The notes under the pieces: generated by a model
Database searches by the model: none
What the model saw: the letters and a program-made list of their open reading frames with translations, nothing else
What the model was told of the DNA's origin: nothing
Shown here: positions 5,271-22,001 of the stretch, piece after piece
How the letters are laid out: every line of letters starts with the position of its first letter
Position numbering within the stretch: the stretch's first letter is position 1
Virus record (IMG/VR): IMGVR_UViG_3300002231_001590
Location: 1-22,609 of that record
Strand: one strand, 5' to 3'
From: a virus
Length of the DNA stretch: 22,609 bases
Program-made: the position numbers and the translations under genes

Positions 5271-6796
5271 TAGTGCACCGACTCCGGTTCGGCCATCGGC
5301 GAGGCATACCGCGCATCACCACCAAGCGATCTGGAAATCGCCTCCAACGTAGTTGTTTGCTTTTTGGCCTCATCTAGCTGATCCTCAGCTACACGCTTGG
5401 CCTCCTCCATCGCCGCTTGCGATGCCGCGGGGGCGGTAGCGGCTAGCTCATCGCGGATCTTTTGGATTTCCGCTTCCAAAGGCGTTGGTGGTCGAGCGAA
5501 CGGCTCGCCGATCCGGTGTTTTTCCTGTGGATCACTAGAAAACAATGGACGCCCATACATTGCCTCATGCCGCATTCCTGCAAAAACACTGGCTCGCCCT
5601 TCCTCGTCAAAAAAATCGAGACCAAGGAGCCCCTCTCGGTGCCCGAGTCTTTGCATAGCTAGACCGCGGATCCTCTGCTCTTTCTCGACCTTCAGCGCCT
5701 CCATCGCTTGCGGTCCGACAGATTGGTTCAGCCTATACCACGCCGCTATCGTCTCGATCTCGCGTGTCTGCCTTGTCTCGGCGATCTCTTCCTCTATACC
5801 CATGCGGCCCTGCGTGAATACGCCAGGGACAGCCTTTGCCTTGATTGCTGTCGTGTAGCTTTCCAGCTTATCTATAGCTGGCACTAGCCACGCAACCGCC
5901 TTAGCTTGCCGGAGTTCAAGGCCAGCGCGGAGCGTCTCGTCTAGCGTATCAATGCCCGCGGTCTCCAGTGCCCGCAGTTTAGTAATCGGGTCGGCATCGG
6001 GAGCCACCCCAAGCCCCGCTAGCGTCTCAATGAAACGTTTGTTAGCCGCAGGCGACAACCCCAAGCCCGCCTTTTCTGTGAATGTCCGCAATTGCTCGGC
6101 TGACACACTTGACGATAGTATCGCCGCTACCGCCATCCCCTGTGCGGAATCCTCGTACGCACCAAGCGCGCCTGCTGATGCTGCTAATTGCGCGGGAGTG
6201 CGTCCAGACAGGTTTCCAGCGACGTACAGCATGCGAACGCCACGCCCAGGTGGTTCGTCCCTCGCTGGTGACGCCGCGAACAGCTCCGCCTCGGTCCCTT
6301 GCTCGGCAGATATCCCTAGCCTGGTGGCCGCGAATATCGCCTCTGCTGCCGCCAGACCTGACTCAAAGTCGCCCCTGGTGGATTGCATGATCTGAACGGT
6401 GTTGAACGCCTCGGCCCGGCTGACGCCGTGCCTAGCACCCGCAAGCCCGGACCTGATGACCGCTTCCCGCCTAGCCCCACCCTCTTGGATAGCCGCCAAT
6501 GCCACCATCTCATTGGCAGCAGCCTTGGCTTCAGTCGATATCTCACGAAGATTGCGCAACCATACCTCGTACGCTCTAGAGACGCCGCCGATAGCTGCCG
6601 TAACCGACACCAGTCCCGTCGCATAGCTCGTAAGCCTTGAAACAGCAAACGCCTCAGTAGTCTTTTTCCCCGTCCTCTTGCCTGCCCTGCCCGCTTCTTT
6701 TAGATCCTCCGTGAGCTTGCGCACCCGCTCCTCAAGCCTTGCTACGCCCTTCTCCGCGTGCTTAACGTCGCCAGTAAAGATGATCTGGTTTGCCAT
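5270..6796 (-). CDS. Tail tape measure protein candidate, short (508 aa)
   Basis: The tape measure runs inside the tail tube, sets tail length and takes part in DNA delivery. The N-terminus is a heptad-like coiled coil (KGVARLEERVRKLTEDLKEA) followed by a Lys/Arg-rich linker. A hydrophobic segment at about residues 55-75 (YATGLVSVTAAIGGVS) may be the membrane-active part. The remainder is almost entirely Ala- and Glu-rich helix, ending in EEAKRVAEDQLDEAKKQ. It follows the chaperone candidate, the canonical order. At about 0.15 nm per residue it would measure a tail near 75 nm, which is inference. No lysozyme or peptidase motif was seen. The start ATG lies four bases after the stop of the predicted frameshift extension, with GAGG about eleven bases upstream. 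Confidence 0.7.
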   Translation of the reverse strand: MANQIIFTGDVKHAEKGVARLEERVRKLTEDLKEAGRAGKRTGKKTTEAFAVSRLTSYATGLVSVTAAIGGVSRAYEVWLRNLREISTEAKAAANEMVALAAIQEGGARREAVIRSGLAGARHGVSRAEAFNTVQIMQSTRGDFESGLAAAEAIFAATRLGISAEQGTEAELFAASPARDEPPGRGVRMLYVAGNLSGRTPAQLAASAGALGAYEDSAQGMAVAAILSSSVSAEQLRTFTEKAGLGLSPAANKRFIETLAGLGVAPDADPITKLRALETAGIDTLDETLRAGLELRQAKAVAWLVPAIDKLESYTTAIKAKAVPGVFTQGRMGIEEEIAETRQTREIETIAAWYRLNQSVGPQAMEALKVEKEQRIRGLAMQRLGHREGLLGLDFFDEEGRASVFAGMRHEAMYGRPLFSSDPQEKHRIGEPFARPPTPLEAEIQKIRDELAATAPAASQAAMEEAKRVAEDQLDEAKKQTTTLEAISRSLGGDARYASPMAEPESVH

Positions 6797-6800
6797 ACCC

Positions 6801-7633
6801 TCAGATCCCTCGAGCCAAAGCTATCACGTCACACATCGTCGGTCGGTATCTCGGCGCTAAGCCTGCCCTCCATCGGCAGTAGGCGAGCCATCGGGCACCG
6901 CCTCTGTTTTTTTTTGCTCATCCCATGCCATTAGAGTGGGAATATCCGTCAACGCCAACAGGATCTCGTACGCAGCATGCTCGCCCAGCAATCCTAACGC
7001 GCCGACCTCTGCCGCTGATACATGATAATTGCACGCAAGCACCTCGACAGCGATCTCGTGAACACCAACAAACTCAAACGACACGCCATCGGGCGGGCTA
7101 GGTTTCTCATCATTCGCAATCGCGGTCTGCGCGTCCACCCATGCCTCGGCCAGTTCCCACAGTCTGGTATACTTCGGTACCACACCACTCGGCACCCATT
7201 CCCCCTGCGCGTTGTACTCGCTGCACCCGGGCAGTGCGATGTACGGCGTGATCGTCTCTCCGCCATCATCGGACAATAACCCGCGAGCAATCGGCACCGT
7301 CCAATCGTTGCCATCCAGCAGCGCAACAGCGTGACCCCTCAGCGCGTCCTTGCGCTGGAGGTCACCTGGTGACGGCCTGTCGTCTGTCGTGAAACCAAAC
7401 CAAACCTGCAACCCGGGCATCTGTCGCCAGGTCTGCGTTTCGGCTTTGTATCCGATTGTTCCCTTCTCGCTCTGGCCGAACACGCAGCCGCGTCCATTGT
7501 CGGGCCCCTTGCCGACGAGCGCCTTGCCCATCGGTACGCCCGACCAGATCGCCGCCAACCCGGCGTCCGCAAGATCCTTACGATTGCCAGGATTGAACCC
7601 TGGGTCTGCGATATAGTACAGTGGTGATGCCAT
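6801..7633 (-). CDS. Predicted -1 frameshift fusion of the tail chaperone (277 aa)
   Basis: If the ribosome slips back one base on the A run after Lys242, a 35-residue extension follows (begins NRGGARWLAYCRWRAGL, ends MCDVIALARGI) and stops at a TGA at 6803-6801. This extension exactly fills the 60-base space to the tape measure and stops four bases before its ATG, in a genome where almost all other genes touch. By analogy with lambda gpG-T, the long form would bind the tape measure while the short form coats it. The extension is shorter than many known T domains. If the A9 run is miscounted, this frame or the +1 frame could be the sole real product. Confidence 0.5.
6857..7633 (-). CDS. Tail assembly chaperone candidate, unshifted product (258 aa)
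   Basis: The gene lies between the tail-tube candidate and the tape measure, where lambda gpG-like tail assembly chaperones are found. Sequence shows a mixed N-terminal domain (LRGHAVALLDGNDWTVPIARG at about 98-118, spelled here in part as LRGHAVALLDGNDWT) and a helical C-terminal half (YHVSAAEVGALGLLGEHAAYEILLAL, of which YHVSAAEVGALGLL is the clearest helix). I do not recognise a named family. The 3' end contains codons CAA AAA AAA ACA, a run of nine A, after which the zero frame stops 16 codons later. That is the hallmark position of the gpG/gpG-T type frameshift. It is longer than lambda gpG (140 aa), so the chaperone call depends on order and the slippery run. Confidence 0.6.
   Translation of the reverse strand: MASPLYYIADPGFNPGNRKDLADAGLAAIWSGVPMGKALVGKGPDNGRGCVFGQSEKGTIGYKAETQTWRQMPGLQVWFGFTTDDRPSPGDLQRKDALRGHAVALLDGNDWTVPIARGLLSDDGGETITPYIALPGCSEYNAQGEWVPSGVVPKYTRLWELAEAWVDAQTAIANDEKPSPPDGVSFEFVGVHEIAVEVLACNYHVSAAEVGALGLLGEHAAYEILLALTDIPTLMAWDEQKKTEAVPDGSPTADGGQA
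6907..6915 (-). promoter_or_regulatory. A9 slippery run, candidate -1 frameshift site
   Basis: On the minus strand the sequence reads GAGCAAAAAAAAACAGAGG, containing an A-AAA-AAA heptamer in the zero frame CAA AAA AAA ACA. Both tRNAs could re-pair perfectly after a one-base backward slip. I did not find an unambiguous stimulatory hairpin directly downstream, though the following 50 bases are GC-rich. Confidence 0.55.
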
Positions 7634-7642
7634 GTGCCTCTC

Positions 7643-8575
7643 TTACGTGATTGTCGATGCTGTATCGAGCGTGATCGGGTGCGTGTTGAATGCTGTTGCC
7701 AGACACTGGAATGTGACGTCAATCGTAGCCTCTGGGCCTGATGCGTTAACGCTGCCGATCGACGCCACGCCGTCGCTTTGGAACTTGATATGCTCAGCCG
7801 TTCCGTCCGCCACATACGAGCCGCCGTCCGAGTATTTCCTCAGATAGATGCTCGTGTTGGCAGTGGTGCCCACCAGTCCTGCGAGCGGAATCGTGGCGGA
7901 CCCAAACCACTCTAGGTTCACGCCGCGAATCGTGATCGTCGGCACGACCATGTCAGACGATATGTGCGTATTCCACATGTCACTGTCTGATCCGCGAGGC
8001 GTCGCTGTGATGCCAAAATCGATGTCTACCGACTGAATCCCTGTCAGCACCTTGCTGCCAAGCGTCACGGGCCCCAGCGTGAATCGCTCTTGCGTGCCGA
8101 TTGTCGGCAGCGCAGCGACGATCGAATCGGCAATCGGGGCATTGGTCCCATCGCTAATCGGGAGCATCTCGAACGATAGCGACGCATCCTGTTGGTGCGC
8201 AGCTGTGATTGTACGCGGCACCAGCAGCCCATCGCCGAACGTGTACGACGAGTTGATTGACGTAGTCGCTCGCGTGCCGCCCGGGTCGTGCTTGACAGCA
8301 TAGAACACGACGCCCACGTCGGGGTCATCGCTAGTAACCTCAAGGCCGCTCACCGTGAGCTTGTCCAGCGCCTTTGCGATCTCGGTCGTGTCGGCTGTCG
8401 CTGTCGGGTTCTGCAAGGCAAGCGCCATGTGCTCTGGGTACGGCGTACCACTGATCGGATTGGCTCGATGCTCGGACCCAAGCGTCACCGTCTGCGATGT
8501 GATGCCGCCGATGACAACCTCGTTGCCGACATCGACCTTGACCGCGTATTGAGAATATATATTCGGGACAGCCAT
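7643..8575 (-). CDS. Major tail tube protein candidate (310 aa)
   Basis: Subunit that would polymerise into the tail tube. It begins MAVPNIYSQYAVKVDVG with AGGAG six bases before the ATG, one of the best ribosome sites in the window, as expected for an abundant protein. The sequence is strongly beta-rich and low in charge (NLEWFGSATIPLAGLVG, ATIDVTFQCLATAFN) and contains the kind of alternating Thr/Val strands usual for tube proteins. Its place directly before the chaperone and tape measure supports the call. There is no decisive motif, so a sequence-profile or structure match would be needed to be sure. Confidence 0.65.
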   Translation of the reverse strand: MAVPNIYSQYAVKVDVGNEVVIGGITSQTVTLGSEHRANPISGTPYPEHMALALQNPTATADTTEIAKALDKLTVSGLEVTSDDPDVGVVFYAVKHDPGGTRATTSINSSYTFGDGLLVPRTITAAHQQDASLSFEMLPISDGTNAPIADSIVAALPTIGTQERFTLGPVTLGSKVLTGIQSVDIDFGITATPRGSDSDMWNTHISSDMVVPTITIRGVNLEWFGSATIPLAGLVGTTANTSIYLRKYSDGGSYVADGTAEHIKFQSDGVASIGSVNASGPEATIDVTFQCLATAFNTHPITLDTASTIT

Positions 8576-8584
8576 GTCGTACTC

Positions 8585-9094
8585 CTATGCCAGTTTCTCT
8601 GTCTTACTAGCCGAACTGCGACGAATCGATTTCTCGACCGCCTTGCTGAATATGCGGTTAAGCACGTTACGTTCCCTGTCACTTATCGCCCTGATTTCGT
8701 CGAGCATATTGATTTCGCTGTGCGGGCTCCGGAAATTCAGGGCCCGTGCCCGAAGCGAGATTTTTGCCTGTTTGAATGTCGACGTAACGTTCATGTTCGA
8801 TACCGTCTCGTCTCGCGTAGTGCCCGTGTACACTAGCGGGTCCATATGGCCGTGTTCTTTCTTCTTTTGCCCGGAGTAGCTCTTGAGAAACCCCATAGCA
8901 CCCGGATTGCCGGCCTCGCCCTTGCGTGGTTTGTAGCCGTATTCTCGCCCACCCGCGCGCGTGAAGTGCTTAGGGATGTGCTGGCGGAAATGGAACACGC
9001 CCACCTGCCGGTATGCCCACTTCATGTGGTTGTTCCACTCGCGTTTCATCATGCCGGGGCTGCGCCCGTCGTGCTTGATGCTTATCAGTATCAT
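8585..9094 (-). CDS. Neck/tail completion protein candidate (169 aa)
   Basis: The start is the ATG at 9094, overlapping the stop of the gene before it (ATGA); an open frame upstream to 9547 only shadows that gene and is Arg-rich nonsense. The protein is basic, with KREWNNHMKWAYRQVG near the N-terminus, then a His/Lys/Arg-rich segment containing HIPKHFTRAGGREYGYKPR and a later HMDPLVYTG. Similar HFT-AG-REYGY...PLVYTG patterns occur in uncharacterised phage proteins of the neck region, as I remember them. Its position before the tube gene suggests a head-tail completion or tail-assembly function. The C-terminus is helical and charged. Confidence 0.5.
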   Translation of the reverse strand: MILISIKHDGRSPGMMKREWNNHMKWAYRQVGVFHFRQHIPKHFTRAGGREYGYKPRKGEAGNPGAMGFLKSYSGQKKKEHGHMDPLVYTGTTRDETVSNMNVTSTFKQAKISLRARALNFRSPHSEINMLDEIRAISDRERNVLNRIFSKAVEKSIRRSSASKTEKLA

Positions 9095-11397
9095 GTGCCC
9101 CACCTCACAGTCGCCGTCGACATGAAGATGTGACCCTCGGTTGGTTCTGCATTTGGATCGTTTGTCCCGGAACCCTCCACGCCAAGCCATTGCGTGACCG
9201 GGTTCGCCATATAACCACCAATCGGGTCTAGCAAGATGACCTGATCGAATAGCTGGCCGACGAATTGCTGCATCTCGTCCATGACAGCTGCGACGTTGTT
9301 GGCCTCCGCGCTTGTCATAGCGCGACGGAATAGCAGTTCGGCTGTGTAGGCCTCGTGGAACGCACCTATGGCTGTCCCTGTCAACATCGCGTCTTCGATC
9401 GAGTAGATGAGATGCGGTAGCTGTGCCTCTATCTCTGCGCGAGAGACGACCTCTTGGCCGGCACGCCGCGGCATGGCCATACGCTGCATGGACTTGCGGG
9501 CCTCTGCCGGACTTGACGCGCCGACCCAGTCGCGGAACGCCTCGCACGCGGCGATAGTCGCTACGAAGATTTCCTCGGCCTTAGAGATACGACCGAGGAA
9601 CCCCACGGGCAGAGGCGGTGCGACGGCCTCGCCAACAGAAGAAACGCCGCTGGTGCCAGTAGTGTATAGCTCCAAGAGCGTAGCCGTGCCGGCGGCGCTT
9701 TGGATGTAGCTTGTAGATGGGGCTGCTGTCTCGCCGTAGGCGCCGACGAATGGGGCAGAGTCGCCCTCTGTCCAATACTTGGCTAGGTGTATGCCAGCTC
9801 CGCTTGCGAAGCTGATAGCCGTATCCACCACGATTGTGGTTGCGCTCAGCGATACGATACCAACCGTCGACGCGGCACCTTCCACTCGCAGCACGTCGCC
9901 AACTCTGAACTTGCGCGGGGCGTATACGTCCGATACTGGTATCACTGCCGTGGAGGACCCGAGCGCACTCGTGGTCGTCAGGAATTCGCCGGCCTCAAGG
10001 CACGAACTGCCCGACTGGTGCATGAGCCCCAACACTTCGCCGAAACCCGCCTCACCAGGCACGATCGACGTGATGGCCGCTGTGTTGTCGGAAAAGTCCA
10101 GGTTGGCCGTCGAAACGAACGTCGGGGCGTCTGTGAAGTTGGTTCCGTCGACGAAAGACGGGTTGTCGGTGGTCTCGTAGCAGTTGTTCTTGATCGTCGA
10201 TTCTAGGTCTTCCCAGTTCTCGAACTCGATGGAATTGGAACCGCCGCCCTGCTGAACAAAGATGTTATTATAGACGAAATGCTGCTGCGCCTCTGTCATC
10301 GCACCAACGGCCGGGTGCTCGATGAGAATACTATTGGTTCCGGTCAGAATTATCGTGTTGTTGTACCAGACTGCACCATCCGTGTTTTCGCTCTGGTCGC
10401 AATCCAGACCTCGGGCGAGCGTATGCCATACCGTATTCCCGCGGATCAGGTGATTTCCGCCGCCGGACGTATGCGTCTTGATGCCGTTCCCGTCGCCTGG
10501 ACCGCCCCCCCAAATGTCTGTCAACCCCGCGTAGAATACGGTGTTATCTTCAACCACGCAGTCATAGGACCCAAACGAGGCGCCGCCAACAATATCGATA
10601 CCGTCGTCGGTGCAATCGTATATGACGTTTTCGGCAATGCGGCATCGCCGACCGTATTTTATGGCGATACCGTCAGAGCTTCCTGACGATTGCTGGCAAG
10701 CATGGATCAGGTTCCCTACAAAATCGCAGTCGATCGGGCCAGCGTCAATCGCCCCCTCGCCTTCGCTTACGTTGCCTTCCTTTCCGAGGATCCCAACATC
10801 GCAGCCGCTAATCGTGCAATACTGAACCGTGCAGTTTTCTGGCTGTCGCCCGGTAGCGCTATCGCCCCGGCCACGCAAATAGATGGCGTTGTCCATCACG
10901 TTGAGGATCGTAATCCCGTCGATGATGATATTGTGGCAGCCTCGGTCCAGCGTACCGGATGTGGCCGTTATCATGATCCCAATACCCGACGTGAATCCCG
11001 GTGTTTGGTCTTCCGGGTCGCCGAGGTTCTGGAGTGTGAAGGCGAAACCATTATTTTCGACCGTCACGTCGTCGGTGAATATAATCAGACCGGCGCCGAC
11101 ATTGCCTGCCGCGTCGTACGTCACGTTTCCGTTGTACGGCCGAATGGTCGTGCGACGGGCGTTCCCAATGTCGGCCTTGTAGTTGCCAGCGAACTTGCCC
11201 CAAACTGTATCATTGCCGCTACCAGACGTGTCGTTGTATGTGCCGGTCGCTACGTTGATTATGACGTCGTCAGTGTCGAGGTTAATCTTAACCTGCGCCA
11301 GATCGATCGCTTTCTGCATCGTCGCGACAGCATCGATGGCGCTCTCGCCATCATCTAAGTCGTTTCCGTCTGTCGCCAGGTATAGGTTGATGGTCAT
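9091..11397 (-). CDS. Beta-helix protein with C-terminal tail-terminator-position domain (768 aa)
   Basis: Residues about 40-450 look like a right-handed parallel beta-helix: repeated turns with N-x-I/V and GI-I patterns (HNIIIDGITILNV, DGIAIKYGRRCRIAENVIYD, NTVWHTLARGLDC), the fold of pectate lyases, NosD-like proteins and many phage polysaccharide depolymerases. Residues about 450-600 are a linker-like beta region. Residues 605-768 are helical then beta (FVATIAACEAFRDWVG ... EGHIFMSTATVRWG) and resemble the size and order of tail-terminator or neck proteins. The ATG at 11397 overlaps the previous stop (ATGA); a longer frame to 11493 shadows that gene. No catalytic residues can be fixed by eye. 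Virion location and the terminator reading are inference. Confidence 0.65.
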   Translation of the reverse strand: MTINLYLATDGNDLDDGESAIDAVATMQKAIDLAQVKINLDTDDVIINVATGTYNDTSGSGNDTVWGKFAGNYKADIGNARRTTIRPYNGNVTYDAAGNVGAGLIIFTDDVTVENNGFAFTLQNLGDPEDQTPGFTSGIGIMITATSGTLDRGCHNIIIDGITILNVMDNAIYLRGRGDSATGRQPENCTVQYCTISGCDVGILGKEGNVSEGEGAIDAGPIDCDFVGNLIHACQQSSGSSDGIAIKYGRRCRIAENVIYDCTDDGIDIVGGASFGSYDCVVEDNTVFYAGLTDIWGGGPGDGNGIKTHTSGGGNHLIRGNTVWHTLARGLDCDQSENTDGAVWYNNTIILTGTNSILIEHPAVGAMTEAQQHFVYNNIFVQQGGGSNSIEFENWEDLESTIKNNCYETTDNPSFVDGTNFTDAPTFVSTANLDFSDNTAAITSIVPGEAGFGEVLGLMHQSGSSCLEAGEFLTTTSALGSSTAVIPVSDVYAPRKFRVGDVLRVEGAASTVGIVSLSATTIVVDTAISFASGAGIHLAKYWTEGDSAPFVGAYGETAAPSTSYIQSAAGTATLLELYTTGTSGVSSVGEAVAPPLPVGFLGRISKAEEIFVATIAACEAFRDWVGASSPAEARKSMQRMAMPRRAGQEVVSRAEIEAQLPHLIYSIEDAMLTGTAIGAFHEAYTAELLFRRAMTSAEANNVAAVMDEMQQFVGQLFDQVILLDPIGGYMANPVTQWLGVEGSGTNDPNAEPTEGHIFMSTATVRWGT

Positions 11398-11777
11398 CGC
11401 TTGACCTCGCGACCTACCGTTACCGGCCCGATTTTCTTGAGATGAAGCGCAGCCGTGCGGCCTGCCCCCTCGGTCACCGCCTCGATCGCCCACTCGACGG
11501 AATCGATGATGACTGTGGCATTTGTCTCCGGCGTAGCGATCCCGCCAGTGGCGGACGTGTCGTCCGTCGTGATCGTCATGACGCGCGTAGTGATTAGCTC
11601 CGTGCGTCGATCCAGCTGCATAGTGTGTTGCTGCTCGCCGGATACGACAGCCTCAATATCAGTTGACGTTGTAGCCCCGACAGCGTCAGGCGCAGTGACG
11701 TACGTCACCGTCTGCCCCAGCGTGTGGACCAGATTTGGCCAAGCGGAGTCGGAGTATATCGTATCAAACTGACTCAT
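11394..11777 (-). CDS. Head-tail connector-like protein (127 aa)
   Basis: Small beta-rich protein directly behind the head genes, the usual site of lambda gpFII-like or similar connectors. It starts MSQFDTIYSDSAWPNL, has paired strands (ELITTRVMTITTDD, ATVIIDSVEWAIEAVTEG) and a short basic C-terminus (KKIGPVTVGREVKR). The V-I-I-D-S-V-E-W...I-E-A-V-T pattern resembles neck proteins that plug or extend the portal. The ribosome site is weak (GGTGA), and a strong hairpin lies just upstream. Assignment is by size, fold impression and order. Confidence 0.55.
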   Translation of the reverse strand: MSQFDTIYSDSAWPNLVHTLGQTVTYVTAPDAVGATTSTDIEAVVSGEQQHTMQLDRRTELITTRVMTITTDDTSATGGIATPETNATVIIDSVEWAIEAVTEGAGRTAALHLKKIGPVTVGREVKR

Positions 11778-14279: not shown

Positions 14280-14882
14280 CTGTTTCTCCTTTAAATTGAG
14301 GCGATCGGCCTCGGCTTCGCGGATCTTTGCTGAAGAGTCCGCACCTACGGGAACGAGCGATGTCTCGCGCAGTCGCCACTCTTTGACGACACGCAGGGCA
14401 CGCTCGCCCGCTGCATAATCCTTGCCCGCCACTCGCTGCGACTTGCCTGGCGGAATGTCGATCCAGTCGTACACTGTGTAGCCGACTGATACGTCTGTGA
14501 GGTGCCCCTGCCGGATCTTTGACCATGCGGATTCGGCACGTTCGTCGCCGTCAGCCAACACCAGCCGGCCAACGACTTCGCCGTCGTCCGCGCGGATGTC
14601 GCGGACGCTGCCGAGTATAGTGTCAAGGCTATGCCGTGCGTGCGTCTCAAGAAGCGGGACCTGCTTGGTGTCCGGCATTTTAACGCCACGAGCAATCAGA
14701 ACTTCGTCGATTGACTCCCATCGCCCCCAATCAAACACGGTCGTCGGCTGCTCTGTGCTAAGCGTTGCCTCCACAGAACGGGCGTCCTCGTCGATCGTGG
14801 CTGCACGGACAAAAAATTCCCGCGTAGTGATACTGCGGTCAGCCGTACCTGTGGCCTCGCGAAGCGTTAGCGGCTCAATCAT
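12681..14882 (-). CDS. Prohead protease-scaffold-major capsid fusion protein (733 aa)
   Basis: One polypeptide covers three assembly jobs. Residues about 20-185 are an HK97-type (S78/U35) prohead protease: the catalytic His is in PLLETHARHSLDTILGSV (His81 or His84) and the Ser in LTDVSVGY (Ser132), with RETSLVPVGAD closing the domain. Residues about 200-370 are charged helix, the scaffold-like part removed on maturation. The rest (from about 395; AITTVLTPTANASIQ, QKFVMDEQHIINDQ, MQIAYLEGTGRRPV) is the capsid subunit. The ATG at 14882 overlaps the portal stop by eight bases; a longer frame to 14975 shadows the portal gene. Fusions of this type are a known phage arrangement. A strong internal ribosome site precedes Met202. 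Confidence 0.85.
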   Translation of the reverse strand: MIEPLTLREATGTADRSITTREFFVRAATIDEDARSVEATLSTEQPTTVFDWGRWESIDEVLIARGVKMPDTKQVPLLETHARHSLDTILGSVRDIRADDGEVVGRLVLADGDERAESAWSKIRQGHLTDVSVGYTVYDWIDIPPGKSQRVAGKDYAAGERALRVVKEWRLRETSLVPVGADSSAKIREAEADRLNLKEKQMDQELRRYLESLGLRADSTDAEAFAFRDALAPERRAEADAAERGEQVEKESARSHAVENNTVVADDKSDGFQLESFDKDAIRADAIKAERERATQIRAASVDGVPSEVVTKAIDDGLTVDQSRAIFLDSLRSGRGPAASVHTRNHEEGNELLVLAESVAQRANTTLVDKDATDDVRRNQERIANMAQRHEGLSLVDMCRESLRATGRTPERNRLEMIRTAMSTTAITTVLTPTANASIQMAWDSARDNTMWAKEVDVKDFTSQTLIDVGDNDDLEIVRPGGTAVDTALSETTDSFRIHRYGQKFVMDEQHIINDQFSVIMDTPARHGAAAMRLKQDAVWALLMSNPTMRDSVACFHADHGNYNAAAGGDFDATTLAEAIAAMAIQTNASGSSLNIQPAYLLIPPALVNSAKILLHSAETASTDGTINPFLDYNIQFVSEARLANGTKLPATDTTTKPTAVAGSSIKWWLAASPTDGPGMQIAYLEGTGRRPVIRSSTLQDGSGQWGVQFDVKLDVGTKIVDWRGLWHSLGTD
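14286..14292 (-). promoter_or_regulatory. Internal Shine-Dalgarno site in the protease-capsid gene
   Basis: AAAGGAG at 14292-14286 with spacer AAACAG before ATG at 14279. It is translated as Leu-Lys-Glu-Lys-Gln in the full-length protein. Match and spacing are near ideal, unlike most purine-rich stretches in this coding sequence. Confidence 0.65.
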
Positions 14883-16362
14883 CGCCGCCCGCTTGTTGCG
14901 TTTGTTCCGTTGTCGCTTGCGTCTGTTCATCGTCTTCGGTGTCCTCTGTGTCGGTATCGCCTTTTCCCAGAACATCTAGCAGCGATGGCAGACCTGCATC
15001 CTTACGTAGATCCGCCTCTTCGCCCTGCTGCTTGATGACATCCTCATGGTCCTTGTTCAGCGCCATGCACTCGTCTTGCAGCGTAGTCGTCCCGTTCAGC
15101 AATCGTTCTGTGGCCGCCTTGGCCTCTTTGAGCGGGTCGACATGCGGTTGTGGCGCGAAAGACCATCGGTAGGTGACATCGTCGGGTCGTGCCGGGAATC
15201 CAGTCTGTAGGCCGACCTCGCTAGCGACGATGTTGGCAAGGCGGTCTAGCACGCCACCCAACCATGTTCGCTCTGCCGCGTTGCTTCTTGCGTAGCCCTG
15301 GACGTCGACGCGCGCTGAGCTGTACGAATGCCCCGACCCGTCGCGCTTCAGTGTCATGAGCGGCATGTTAACGACGAGTCCAACCTCTCGCAGTCGCTCG
15401 TCGCGGAATTCGACGTAGCGTGCGGACGGTTGCGTTGGTGTTAGCTGGTTCAGCGCCCAGCCTGGCGGGATGAAGTCAAGCTGGCCACGCTCGACATCGA
15501 TTGCGTCACCAGGATCCTGTAGAGCGTCGTCTGCGCTGTTAGGATTAGTGAGCACGGCTGAAAACTTTGCCGCCTGCCTGGCAGCCTCAAGCGTCTCTGC
15601 GTCGAAAGCGCGAATGTCTGACACCGCCTGCAACGACGGGAGCGAGACGCGGCACGCCGCGGAGCTGGCCTTCTTCGAGCGTGTGGTACCCGTGGATGAT
15701 GTTCTCGGCCGGGAATCGCGTGATTGTCTGTGCAAAGGTGCCGATTGACCCCGTATCTGGCGTTTCATCGATGTGGTACGCCACCGCCATATTGTAGTCG
15801 TCGATCTCGACACCCATGACGATTTTCGGGTCGGAAACCTGGCCAAGCGGAGTCATGAGCCTTCGCGGGCTCAAGAGGTGCAATCTGGCCTTGCATCGCG
15901 TGGTTGCCGCAGAATATGTGACGATTTTGGGCCAGAAACTCCCCGTTGACGAGCAGGCCACGGAGCCAAAGCCGCAGAATATCGACTCCGGTGAGCCGTC
16001 CTGCCCCGGTCTGGCATTTCCCACCACTCACCCCAAGCAGCCTTCAGCGCCTCGTTGTAGGCCTTGGAATCGCTCTGAACGTCCAGTGTGGGCCCGTTTG
16101 GACCTAGAATGCTCGTCTGGTGCGTGCCAATCATGCCGTCGATGTACGCATTGCAGCTGGCTTCATACGTCGCGCGCGTCCTCAGTGTGTCCAGTGACGA
16201 CTCTAGGTCGGTGTTGATAAGCGTGTCGGTGGCGTTGACCCATTGGGCGGATGTGAGCCGGGTTGTTTCCGTTGAATCCGACCAACGCGACCGCTTGCCG
16301 CCGTCTGCTGCGATCTTGCGGGCCGTTTTCTTGATGATCCGCTTGGCCCACTTGAGCATCAC
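14875..16362 (-). pseudogene. Lambda-type portal protein, broken by three +1 shifts
   Basis: The portal forms the ring through which DNA enters the head. The frame begins MMLKWAKRIIKKTARK and shows RTRATYEASCNAYIDGMIG, then must change frame three times: near 16020-16022 (GGG run), 15925-15931 (AAAA beside CCC) and 15638-15640 (CCC run). After each shift recognisable portal sequence resumes: GVDILRLWLRGLLVNGEFLA, then KIVMGVEIDDYNMAVAYHID and RGVPRLAP, then SLQAVSDIRAFDAETLEAAR, LDFIPPGWALN and a Gln/Thr-rich tail. Removing one base at each run gives one 494-residue protein, a normal length. As given, translation stops at 15871 after 163 residues. Sequence or assembly error is more likely than a real pseudogene because the gene is essential. 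The start overlaps the upstream gene (ATGA). Confidence 0.8.
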
Positions 16363-19023: not shown

Positions 19024-19947
19024 TTAGCGTGTTCGTTTTTCGACCTCCATGATCCGCTGCCCAATAAACTCCGCCACTTGCGGCACCACAGCGTTGCCTA
19101 ACCCTCGCAATCGGTCCACCCTGCGGGGAACCCCATCAGCCACTCGACCCACGTTGGGTTCAATCGCCCACTGCTTGGTGCTGATTGTGCTTGCGAATTC
19201 TCGGAGGCCTGCTGGGTTATGCCAGGTAGCGACACTACTACCTCCTGACGCGATCGCATGGCCACCACTTCCTCCAGGTTCCCGCGATTGCGAGCTGCCA
19301 GTTTCCTTGTCATCGGTTGGTTCATGGCCCAGGAACTCCGCGGTGTTGGCCACATTCTGACCTGGTCTGTTAGATTGGTCTGCTTCTTGGTTCCATTCTT
19401 GCGGACCCAATAAGCACCCCGCCACTCCCTGCGTTCCGCCTCTGACGAACTTATGTTCGACGCCGTCGGCGTAGCCAACAATAAACACCCGGTCACGTCG
19501 GTGATGGGCGCCAACGGCCGCCGCCGGGATGCAATCCCATTCCGCATCATACCCGCTCGCGGCCAGGTCCCCGAGTACTCTATCCAACCCCCGGCCAAGC
19601 AACGCTGAAACGTTCTCCACGAGCACGTACCTGGGTCGAAGCTCGCAAATGATCCGATTAAACTCGCCCCAAAGACCGCTACGCTTCCCGTCGATTCCTG
19701 CTCGGTTTCCTGCATTGCTAATATCCTGGCATGGGAATCCGCCGCAAATGAGGTCTACCGGTTCAAGATTCCGCACTCCTATACCTCGCACATCTTCATA
19801 TCTCGCCACACGTGGCCAGTGCTTTTCAAGTACGCGATTCGCGTACGGATCACACTCCACTTGCCAACAGCACACCATGCCCGCCCGCTCTAGACCAAGG
19901 TCTAGTCCGCCAATGCCGGTGAACAAGCTGCCGAACGAAAGAGTCAT
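19024..19947 (-). CDS. DNA (cytosine-5) methyltransferase (307 aa)
   Basis: Transfers a methyl group from S-adenosylmethionine to C5 of cytosine in DNA. Motif I is GSLFTGIGGLDLG (6-18), motif IV GGFPCQDIS with catalytic Cys73, motif VI ENV (111-113), motif VIII HHRRDRVFIVG (148-158), and motifs IX-X RVDRLRGLGNAVVPQ (276-290). The target-recognition part is about 160-260. All key residues are present, so it should be active. It probably protects phage DNA from restriction; there is no partner endonuclease in view. AGGA lies nine bases before the ATG, which overlaps the previous stop (ATGA). Most of the gene also carries a second open frame. Confidence 0.92.
   Translation of the reverse strand: MTLSFGSLFTGIGGLDLGLERAGMVCCWQVECDPYANRVLEKHWPRVARYEDVRGIGVRNLEPVDLICGGFPCQDISNAGNRAGIDGKRSGLWGEFNRIICELRPRYVLVENVSALLGRGLDRVLGDLAASGYDAEWDCIPAAAVGAHHRRDRVFIVGYADGVEHKFVRGGTQGVAGCLLGPQEWNQEADQSNRPGQNVANTAEFLGHEPTDDKETGSSQSREPGGSGGHAIASGGSSVATWHNPAGLREFASTISTKQWAIEPNVGRVADGVPRRVDRLRGLGNAVVPQVAEFIGQRIMEVEKRTR
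19098..19715 (-). CDS. Overprinted ORF inside the C5 methyltransferase gene (205 aa)
   Basis: A 205-codon frame, shifted +1 from the methyltransferase frame, covers its codons about 78-283 on the same strand. It starts at an ATG with AGGA eight bases upstream. The translation is not random-looking: it contains CSWRTFQRCLAGGW, SGTWPRAGMMRNGIA, RMWPTPRSS and LNPTWVEWLMGFPAGWTD. From memory, proteins with SW-T-Q, TWPRSGMMRNG, WPTP and NP-WVEWLMG-P-GWTD in this order are common in phage annotations, which suggests the frame is translated and conserved. Function is unknown. I could not check conservation, so the alternative is a chance open frame imposed by conserved methyltransferase codons. Confidence 0.5.
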   Translation of the reverse strand: MQETEQESTGSVAVFGASLIGSFASFDPGTCSWRTFQRCLAGGWIEYSGTWPRAGMMRNGIASRRRPLAPITDVTGCLLLATPTASNISSSEAERREWRGAYWVRKNGTKKQTNLTDQVRMWPTPRSSWAMNQPMTRKLAARNRGNLEEVVAMRSRQEVVVSLPGITQQASENSQAQSAPSSGRLNPTWVEWLMGFPAGWTDCEG

Positions 19948-20210
19948 GACTCGTCATCCTGCTTGGCCTCTTGCTCAAGCCGCTTTCGCTGTTTAGTCGT
20001 CAACGACCTCACCGACACGTACAGACTGCCACAACCGTACGCGTCGCCAGCCTGAAGGTACGACTTGCGCCTAAGTCCGTAGCCGTGAGCAGTCAAAACG
20101 AATATGCCGCTCCTCTCCTCCTCGACAGCGAAGTCGACGCCGCTTGGGATGCCCCGAAAGAAGCGGAAGTCTTGACCGTACAGGATCCTGTTGTCTTTGC
20201 GGAAGATCAT
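19944..20210 (-). CDS. Unknown 88-aa protein of the accessory cassette
   Basis: Not recognised. It overlaps the RNA ligase stop at its start and the C5 methyltransferase start at its end (ATGA at both junctions), so all three are probably translated together. The body looks like a small beta domain (DFRFFRGIPSGVDFAVEEE, GIFVLTAHGYGLRRKSYLQ, GSLYVSV) and ends in a charged helix (TTKQRKRLEQEAKQDDES). Possible roles as a nucleic-acid-binding partner of the ligase or methyltransferase are only inferred from coupling. Confidence 0.6.
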   Translation of the reverse strand: MIFRKDNRILYGQDFRFFRGIPSGVDFAVEEERSGIFVLTAHGYGLRRKSYLQAGDAYGCGSLYVSVRSLTTKQRKRLEQEAKQDDES

Positions 20211-21277
20211 GGTTTTGGTTCCATTGAATTCCCATGCGGCCTGATAAGACCCATAATGTACTTGTCAATCAGATCAGGCCGGGCGTCCAGGCACGCGAAC
20301 ATAACCTTAGAGTGCCGCACGCTCCGAGCCGCCTCCGCGAACTGTTTTCGTGGGATGCCGGCGTGCCGTATGGAGTAATAGTCAGCCTCGATCTCGGCAT
20401 ATATGGCCCCATACCAGTCCTCCAGCCTGCACACGATGACATCAAGCTCGGCCTGATACTCATCCTCCACAAGATCCCGATACTCGTCACGCAATTTACC
20501 GTTGCGCATGGAGCCCCACACTGTTAGCGGAGTGATGCCTTCTCGCACCTTCGAGCGTCGCCTGTAGTCCTCGCCCTTGATTTTGACACGCAATCCGTTG
20601 TTGAACCTAACCACAACGCCCTCCATTTCCTTTCCGCTACAGCCGTCGAGCACGCGTCGGCACTGGGCGATATTGGGCACATATTCCATTGGTGTTTCGC
20701 ATCCTATGAGCATTGCAAAGGACAACGTCCTGTGCCATGGGTATTCACGGCCTGTGTGCCGGTCGAATGCCGCCAATAGCACAAGTGCTTCCCGCTCATG
20801 ATAGTCGACGATGATACGTGTGGCCGGGCTCACCAGCTCGAACACCAGCGTGACCTCATCGGGAAGCCAGGAAAGGTTGCAATGGCTGGCCAAGAAGTCC
20901 GTAGCCCACATGGCGCCGGGGCTACTGAAGCTCCCGCGCGAAGCGATGGCGTATCCACCATCCACCCGGTACAGGTTGCCGAGCCAGCCGTCAACCTTCT
21001 CGAATACAGAGTAGCCGTCCGACCATGGCAGGACGCTCTCTTGTGTCTCTTCATTCTCACCCAGATTGAAGAACTTAGGGAACGTCCATGCAACGCACTC
21101 GCCCGTCCGACGATTGAAGATGTGGCCACGGCTGTTCCTGGTGATCTCGTCCCACGCACGAGCGTGCGTGCACCTGTCCGTGTACGTGTAGACCGACAAG
21201 TCGCCCAGGTCATCGCGGCGCAAGAGGCCCTTAGCTACGTAGTCGTCTCGGGTTGTTACGGGTTGTGTGTTAGTCAT
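20207..21277 (-). CDS. T4 Rnl1-like RNA ligase (356 aa)
   Basis: ATP-dependent ligase that joins 5'-phosphate and 3'-hydroxyl RNA ends, used by T4 to repair tRNA cut by host anticodon nuclease. The nucleotidyltransferase motifs are in order: motif I EKVDG with catalytic Lys94, Ia SRGSF (113-117), III VFELVSP (145-151), IV KEMEGVVVRF (216-225) and V LRVKIKG (229-235). A helical C-terminal part from about 265 matches the extra domain of Rnl1 proteins, and length is near T4 Rnl1 (374 aa). AAAGGAG lies ten bases before the ATG, which overlaps the micro-ORF stop. No polynucleotide kinase-phosphatase, the usual partner, is in view. Confidence 0.88.
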   Translation of the reverse strand: MTNTQPVTTRDDYVAKGLLRRDDLGDLSVYTYTDRCTHARAWDEITRNSRGHIFNRRTGECVAWTFPKFFNLGENEETQESVLPWSDGYSVFEKVDGWLGNLYRVDGGYAIASRGSFSSPGAMWATDFLASHCNLSWLPDEVTLVFELVSPATRIIVDYHEREALVLLAAFDRHTGREYPWHRTLSFAMLIGCETPMEYVPNIAQCRRVLDGCSGKEMEGVVVRFNNGLRVKIKGEDYRRRSKVREGITPLTVWGSMRNGKLRDEYRDLVEDEYQAELDVIVCRLEDWYGAIYAEIEADYYSIRHAGIPRKQFAEAARSVRHSKVMFACLDARPDLIDKYIMGLIRPHGNSMEPKP

Positions 21278-21357
21278 GACAGGCAGGCTCCTTTGGTTTT
21301 GCTGAGCGATGCTAACGCCTTCCCTAGTCGCTCGCCGTCGTCACTCGATTCTGACAT
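21274..21357 (-). CDS. 27-aa micro-ORF coupled to methyltransferase and RNA ligase
   Basis: ATG at 21357 overlaps the methyltransferase stop by one base (TGATG), and the TGA at the end overlaps the RNA ligase ATG (ATGA). AGGAGG lies about ten bases upstream, inside the methyltransferase's last codons. The peptide begins MSESSDDGERLGKALASL and ends in Ser after KTKGAC; it is acidic then basic and has no membrane segment. It exactly fills the space between two genes, so it is probably translated. It may be functional or simply keep ribosomes moving into the ligase gene. Confidence 0.6.
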   Translation of the reverse strand: MSESSDDGERLGKALASLSKTKGACLS

Positions 21358-22001
21358 CAGAACAACTCCTCCTGCGCCATCCGTTTGGCAGCAATCTCGC
21401 AGTACTTTTCCTCTATCTCGATCCCGATGGCCTTGCGGCCTAAGTCCTTGGCGGCGCGCAGCGTTGTGCCGCTGCCCATGAAGGGGTCGAGGACGGTGTC
21501 GGCGTCTGGCGCTTTTAAGATAAGTTGCGACATGACGCTGACAGGCTTTTGGTGTGGATGGGTCCTGTTGCCACCGTATCGCGGGTGTCGCGGTTGTATG
21601 ATCTCCGCAGTGAGGACGGCGTCACCACGATAACCTCGCCAGCCCTGACCATAAATCCATATCAGCTCGAAACTCGGCCTCCATGGGAATGACAGGTCGC
21701 CCATGCCTCCGATTGTCTTATGCCAGACAAGGCACCCGCGAGGCGGAACCGGCGGAAGGCATCGCCACGTAGCAAAGCAGGCCATCGGGCGAGGCAGCCA
21801 GCATCCAAGAAGCCAATCTCGAAGCTCTGTCGTCTCGTCGCCGACGATCTCGCGATCGACTATTCCCGTATGGCGACTCTTGTACCCGATCCCATACGGC
21901 GGGTCCGTCAAAACCAGATCCGCCTGCCCGAGTGTCGGTAAAACCTCTCGGCAGTCGCCGTGATAGATCGTTATGCCTTTGTGATCGTAGTACGGTTTCA
22001 A
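21357..22001 (-). CDS. DNA N6-adenine/N4-cytosine methyltransferase, beta class (214 aa)
   Basis: Methylates an exocyclic amino group in DNA using S-adenosylmethionine. The order is that of the beta class: catalytic motif IV TDPPYGIGY (32-40) near the N-terminus and the cofactor motif DPFMGSGTT (172-180) near the C-terminus, with HPHQKP (148-153) before it. DPPY fits adenine methylation best but does not exclude N4-cytosine. The length is compact. The start is TTG at 22001, overlapping the small-terminase TGA; the N-terminus KPYYDHKGITIYHGDCREVL is typical of the family, so no later start is possible. Likely an orphan enzyme guarding phage DNA from restriction. Confidence 0.92.
   Translation of the reverse strand: MKPYYDHKGITIYHGDCREVLPTLGQADLVLTDPPYGIGYKSRHTGIVDREIVGDETTELRDWLLGCWLPRPMACFATWRCLPPVPPRGCLVWHKTIGGMGDLSFPWRPSFELIWIYGQGWRGYRGDAVLTAEIIQPRHPRYGGNRTHPHQKPVSVMSQLILKAPDADTVLDPFMGSGTTLRAAKDLGRKAIGIEIEEKYCEIAAKRMAQEELF

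Follow-up and report, generated by a model that had tools for sequence, protein, structure and literature searches.

A conserved run of nine adenines at a predicted −1 recoding site in a new family of phage tail assembly chaperones

We analysed a 22,609-nt stretch of viral DNA (IMG/VR record IMGVR_UViG_3300002231_001590, positions 1 to 22,609), hereafter the window. Its tail assembly chaperone gene very probably yields two proteins by programmed −1 recoding, which we consider the best explanation of the locus as a whole. That the gene is subject to programmed recoding of one kind or the other, ribosomal or transcriptional, appears almost certain from comparison with its relatives. The kind of system is known; the chaperone family is new, and its slip site is unusual in having a strictly conserved length. 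The mechanism is most likely −1 frameshifting by the ribosome, as in lambda G/GT, with transcriptional slippage a serious rival.

From the arrangement of the frames we infer that both chaperone forms would be produced. Most translation would end at position 6857 to give the 258-aa form, and a minority would slip back one base on the A9 run (6907–6915) and read a further 35 codons to give a 277-aa form with a T-like C-terminal module. The role in tail assembly is suggested by the lambda gpG/gpGT pair. As there, the short form would coat the tape-measure protein of the gene that follows, and tube protein would be drawn in by the extension, letting the tail tube form to a set length.

Genes and reading frames at the chaperone locus

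The original prediction had placed an A9 run 16 codons before the chaperone stop, followed by a −1 frame open for 35 codons whose stop lies four bases before the tape-measure ATG, for a fusion of 277 aa. Coordinates and codons agreed with it throughout (Table 1). The 0-frame codons at the run are GAG CAA AAA AAA ACA, with the TAG at 6857–6859 coming 16 codons later. Read in the −1 frame after the slip, the sequence is NRGGARWLAYCRWRAGLAPRYRPTMCDVIALARGI, ending at the TGA at 6801–6803, and the candidate ATG of the tape-measure gene is at 6796. The A9 is the sole A/T run longer than seven in the window, where runs of at least nine are expected by chance about 0.01 times.

Table 1. Features of the chaperone locus, in window coordinates
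Feature	Position	Strand	Remarks
Major tail (tube) protein, 310 aa	7643..8575	-	upstream of chaperone; identity by position only
0-frame product, gpG-like tail assembly chaperone	6857..7633	-	258 aa; homologues in 40 other lineages
Slip site, A9 (T9 on + strand)	6907..6915	-	exactly A9 in 36/41 lineages
Heptamer A_AAA_AAA within A9	6908..6914	-	in phase, within the chaperone run
-1 frame extension, gpT-like	6801..6908	-	35 codons, then TGA at 6801-6803; would yield 277-aa fusion
0-frame tail past slip site	6857..6907	-	TEAVPDGSPTADGGQA + stop; length and sequence vary among relatives
Tape-measure protein, 508 aa	5270..6796	-	by homology; ATG 4 bases past extension stop

The predicted order of tube, chaperone with slip site and tape measure was found on the minus strand (8575 to 7643, 7633 to 6857 and 6796 to 5270, respectively), with the tube assigned by position and the tape measure by homology. 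The tube protein had no Pfam or PHROGs match; it is 25–40% identical to the tube proteins of its relatives. The tape-measure protein is 34% identical (E=5e-53) to the product of the same-position gene in lineage L101, and the L095 counterpart is also homologous. In L089 the counterpart reached the Pfam cut-off for PhageMin_Tail and also matched tape-measure families in PHROGs. By this homology, the gene downstream of the chaperone is the tape measure.

The chaperone itself had been described as of no recognised family, and indeed it found no family match in Pfam, PHROGs or NCBIfam; known chaperone families are highly diverse, so a match is not required. Its AlphaFold2 model has a pLDDT of 76. 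The best structural match of the model in a viral library was a tail assembly chaperone (Foldseek probability 1.00, E=3e-3), a partial and weak match with a TM-score of 0.51 on the target, and a fold search of the PDB with the same model found nothing. Gene order and this partial match of the predicted structure support a gpG/gpGT-like role.

Elsewhere in the window, the portal gene (14875–16362, minus strand) is split: its matches to the L046 portal change frame at about 15.93–16.03 kb and at about 15.63 kb, and both halves match Pfam Phage_portal_2. The split is the result of two compensating indels, by assembly error or by decay. An 800-aa ORF at 9091–11493 (minus strand) has a right-handed beta-helix domain, and its residues 636–763 weakly resemble (E=0.01) a small protein of the head-tail region of L046 (14192–14596); it is possibly a fusion of a beta-helix protein with a tail-completion-like protein. 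Genes for a C-5 cytosine methylase, a T4 Rnl1-like RNA ligase and an N6/N4 DNA methylase adjoin the packaging genes (19024–22001, minus strand).

Relatives and the conservation of the extension

As a direct query, the 258-aa protein gave no match in viral contigs, phage records or genomes. Neither did the first single-sequence searches of viral contigs with the capsid and tube proteins, and a search of solved structures found nothing. Relatives were reached through an alignment of the fused protease-capsid protein, which led to L046, and then through tube protein alignments, which led to further contigs and to one Planctomycetaceae MAG, L094. The L046 tube is 36% identical to that of the window; its chaperone, only 28% identical in the 0-frame part, also carries an A9, followed by a −1 extension homologous to that of the window. 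The first 30 lineages (window included, duplicates removed) were found via capsid or tube, so the A run played no part in their selection; the median chaperone identity among them was 32%. A search of 392 Planctomycetota genomes added 11 lineages, and the hosts are therefore very likely Planctomycetota. Besides the window there are thus 40 lineages: viral contigs supplied 28 of them, and Planctomycetota genomes or MAGs the other 12. One viral contig (L129) with a weak match (E=2e-13) and no run seen was left out of the count of 41.

Two observations at the edge of the family may be recorded here. L141, the most distant homologue and the one exception among the 41, is without run and without extension and has another gene directly after the chaperone. 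L077 has a related capsid, with no chaperone homologue detected; at about position 7910 an A9 links two of its frames, and a 673-aa ORF follows some hundreds of bases further on, so this is possibly a second chaperone family that uses A9.

Comparison of homologues had been named beforehand as the test that could overturn the prediction. The −1 extension was found in 40 of the 41 lineages, 38 of which have a run of at least seven As, and the direction of the shift was −1 in all 40. Extension length was 31–72 codons in the 38 lineages with an A run. The extensions have a motif in common, close to RW..Y..W..G...YRPT.ADL, which in the most distant lineages (L137–L140, read by eye) takes a loose form; the L132 extension was read by eye from the sequence, together with a weak profile match. 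The conservation expected past the run was also recovered by profile. In a leave-one-out test, an HMM built from six other extensions ranked that of the window first among 574 ORFs (E=7e-12, the next at 0.022), and the test succeeded likewise for the other six; profile matches were obtained in most of the lineages outside these seven. The extension is not a chance open frame, since it is conserved as protein in relatives. A divergent gpG/gpG-T pair with a very short T part, as originally proposed, fits this homologue evidence.

In most lineages no more than some tens of bases separate the end of the extension from the tape-measure start. No long tape-measure-like ORF directly follows it in L091, L118 or L124–L128. 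The sub-clade of L124, L125, L126 and L128 keeps the run and the −1 extension and has no PT motif; the next ORF there encodes a protein of about 210 aa that is not an obvious tape measure. Extension matches in L013, L015 and L072 were discarded, as they lay within long coding regions that probably belong to the tape-measure gene. A +1 shift was also considered and rejected: in the seven lineages checked that frame is shut after 14–25 codons (25 in the window) and is unconserved.

The nine-A run and the route of the shift

The 41 lineages comprise 36 with A9, one with A7 (L097, TCA AAA AAA GCG), one with A10 (L133), two with G_GGA_AAA (L108 and L132) and one with no site (L141). The run is exactly A9 in 28 of the 30 lineages found by tube or capsid, counting the window, and in 8 of the 11 from Planctomycetota genomes, two others of which have the A10 and one of the G_GGA_AAA sites. 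It starts at codon phase 0, 1 or 2 in 10, 15 and 11 lineages, respectively, so that no phase is favoured. The first 30 loci, 306 kb in all, contain 28 A9/T9 runs, every one of them such a slip site. A slippery heptamer needs seven As in one phase, yet exactly nine are kept: the two As beyond the in-phase heptamer are retained in 36 of 36 A9 lineages, and a flanking A is never added. This suggests, from the comparison of sequences, that selection acts on run length itself. Nine As across all three phases are not explained by a plain slippery heptamer.

RNA polymerase slippage depends on run length and not on reading-frame phase. By this route the polymerase would stutter on A9, some mRNAs would carry A10, and normal translation of these would produce the extended chaperone. 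We give programmed transcriptional slippage roughly one chance in three. The constancy of A9 in all phases speaks for it, as does the lack of any A9/T9 run elsewhere in those 306 kb; the sites have the length that such slippage calls for, at least 8–9 A/T, and occur in every phase. That the two further As are always kept and no flanking A is ever added has a chance of about 2e-7 by base composition, an approximate value, as it treats the lineages as independent. For the first 30 lineages, the tree calls for about 13 changes of phase label, although its well-supported branches by themselves require no more than three or four per label. Nine As or Ts is a length at which bacterial slippage is known, for example in dnaX of Thermus (PMC5009743, PMC3711429). 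A stimulator of ribosomal slippage was not found either: neither a downstream stem-loop nor an upstream Shine-Dalgarno-like element is conserved across lineages, and mean folding z was −0.44 downstream and −0.40 upstream, compared with +0.10 for control stretches.

The direction of the shift points the other way. Families with transcriptional slippage are reported to switch direction, and a constant direction is a mark of ribosomal frameshifting (Antonov et al., PMC3711429); here all 40 lineages that have an extension shift by −1. Varying direction is an indicator of transcriptional slippage rather than strictly defining, and +1-base insertions alone would likewise keep the direction at −1. 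Among the exceptions to A9, L097 with its A7 and L108 and L132 with G_GGA_AAA can hardly work by polymerase slippage. G_GGA_AAA is a heptamer of the classical ribosomal type rather than a site of polymerase slippage, and the known frameshifts of tail chaperones are ribosomal. With the constant direction, the A7, the two G_GGA_AAA sites and the habit of the gene class in its support, the ribosomal route is the one we favour on this comparative evidence, if by a modest degree. P- and A-site tRNA-Lys would then re-pair by −1 on A_AAA_AAA. It is a real if lesser possibility, again of roughly one chance in three, that this clade of Planctomycetota phages sets its ratio of chaperone forms by phase-independent transcriptional slippage on a run kept at exactly nine As, with the A7 and G_GGA_AAA lineages having switched to, or kept, a ribosomal site.

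Two explanations without recoding fare much worse. The extension sits just before the tape-measure gene and might be a separate short gene translated by re-initiation, with no fusion made. This is very improbable: in most lineages the motif begins a few codons past the run, no conserved start codon or ribosome-binding site was seen by eye, and what is conserved is the run joining both frames. Still less credible is an ordinary single-frame gene, its A run a product of mis-assembly or its −1 open frame due to chance; the two frame breaks in the portal gene do tell of indel errors or decay in this contig and leave its A count, taken alone, not fully trustworthy, but that worry is removed by the identical A9 in tens of independently assembled relatives, among them L091 and L092, the same or near-identical virus from different samples, and conservation of the homologous extension past the run refutes a chance frame.

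Significance and relation to known systems

The findings add a chaperone family that Pfam, PHROGs and NCBIfam lack, along with its predicted frameshift product, a fusion that ordinary gene callers would miss. The family belongs to phages that very likely infect an environmentally important bacterial phylum, the Planctomycetota. In tail-chaperone genes the shift is usually taken as ribosomal, and the rule of nine As across three phases offers natural material for telling the ribosomal from the transcriptional route.

Outside phages, dnaX of Thermus thermophilus and tssM of Citrobacter rodentium also have a homopolymer of at least nine that leads to two length variants, by transcriptional slippage on A9 or A11 (PMC5009743, PMC4256274). 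These are not tail genes, and the mechanism was established there by RNA analysis; for the site described here it is proposed from sequence. Rhodobacter phage RcKemmy (gp15/gp16) has the same order of gpW, portal, fused protease-capsid, tube, chaperone annotated with a frameshift, and tape measure. Its chaperone has no detectable homology to that of the window, and it has a site of its own, G_GGA_AAC, in the overlap of the annotated chaperone frameshift.

The closest likeness is to lambda gpG/gpGT and the chaperones of other long-tailed phages. They have in common with the family described here the place between tube and tape measure, the −1 direction, and a 0-frame form with a C-terminal extension that ends at the tape-measure gene; two relatives (L108 and L132) use the lambda-like G_GGA_AAA. 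The differences lie in sequence, which matches no family, and in proportions, the 0-frame part here being larger (about 230 aa or more) and the T part short (31–72 codons). They lie also in the slip site, which in this family is nearly always exactly A9, in any phase.
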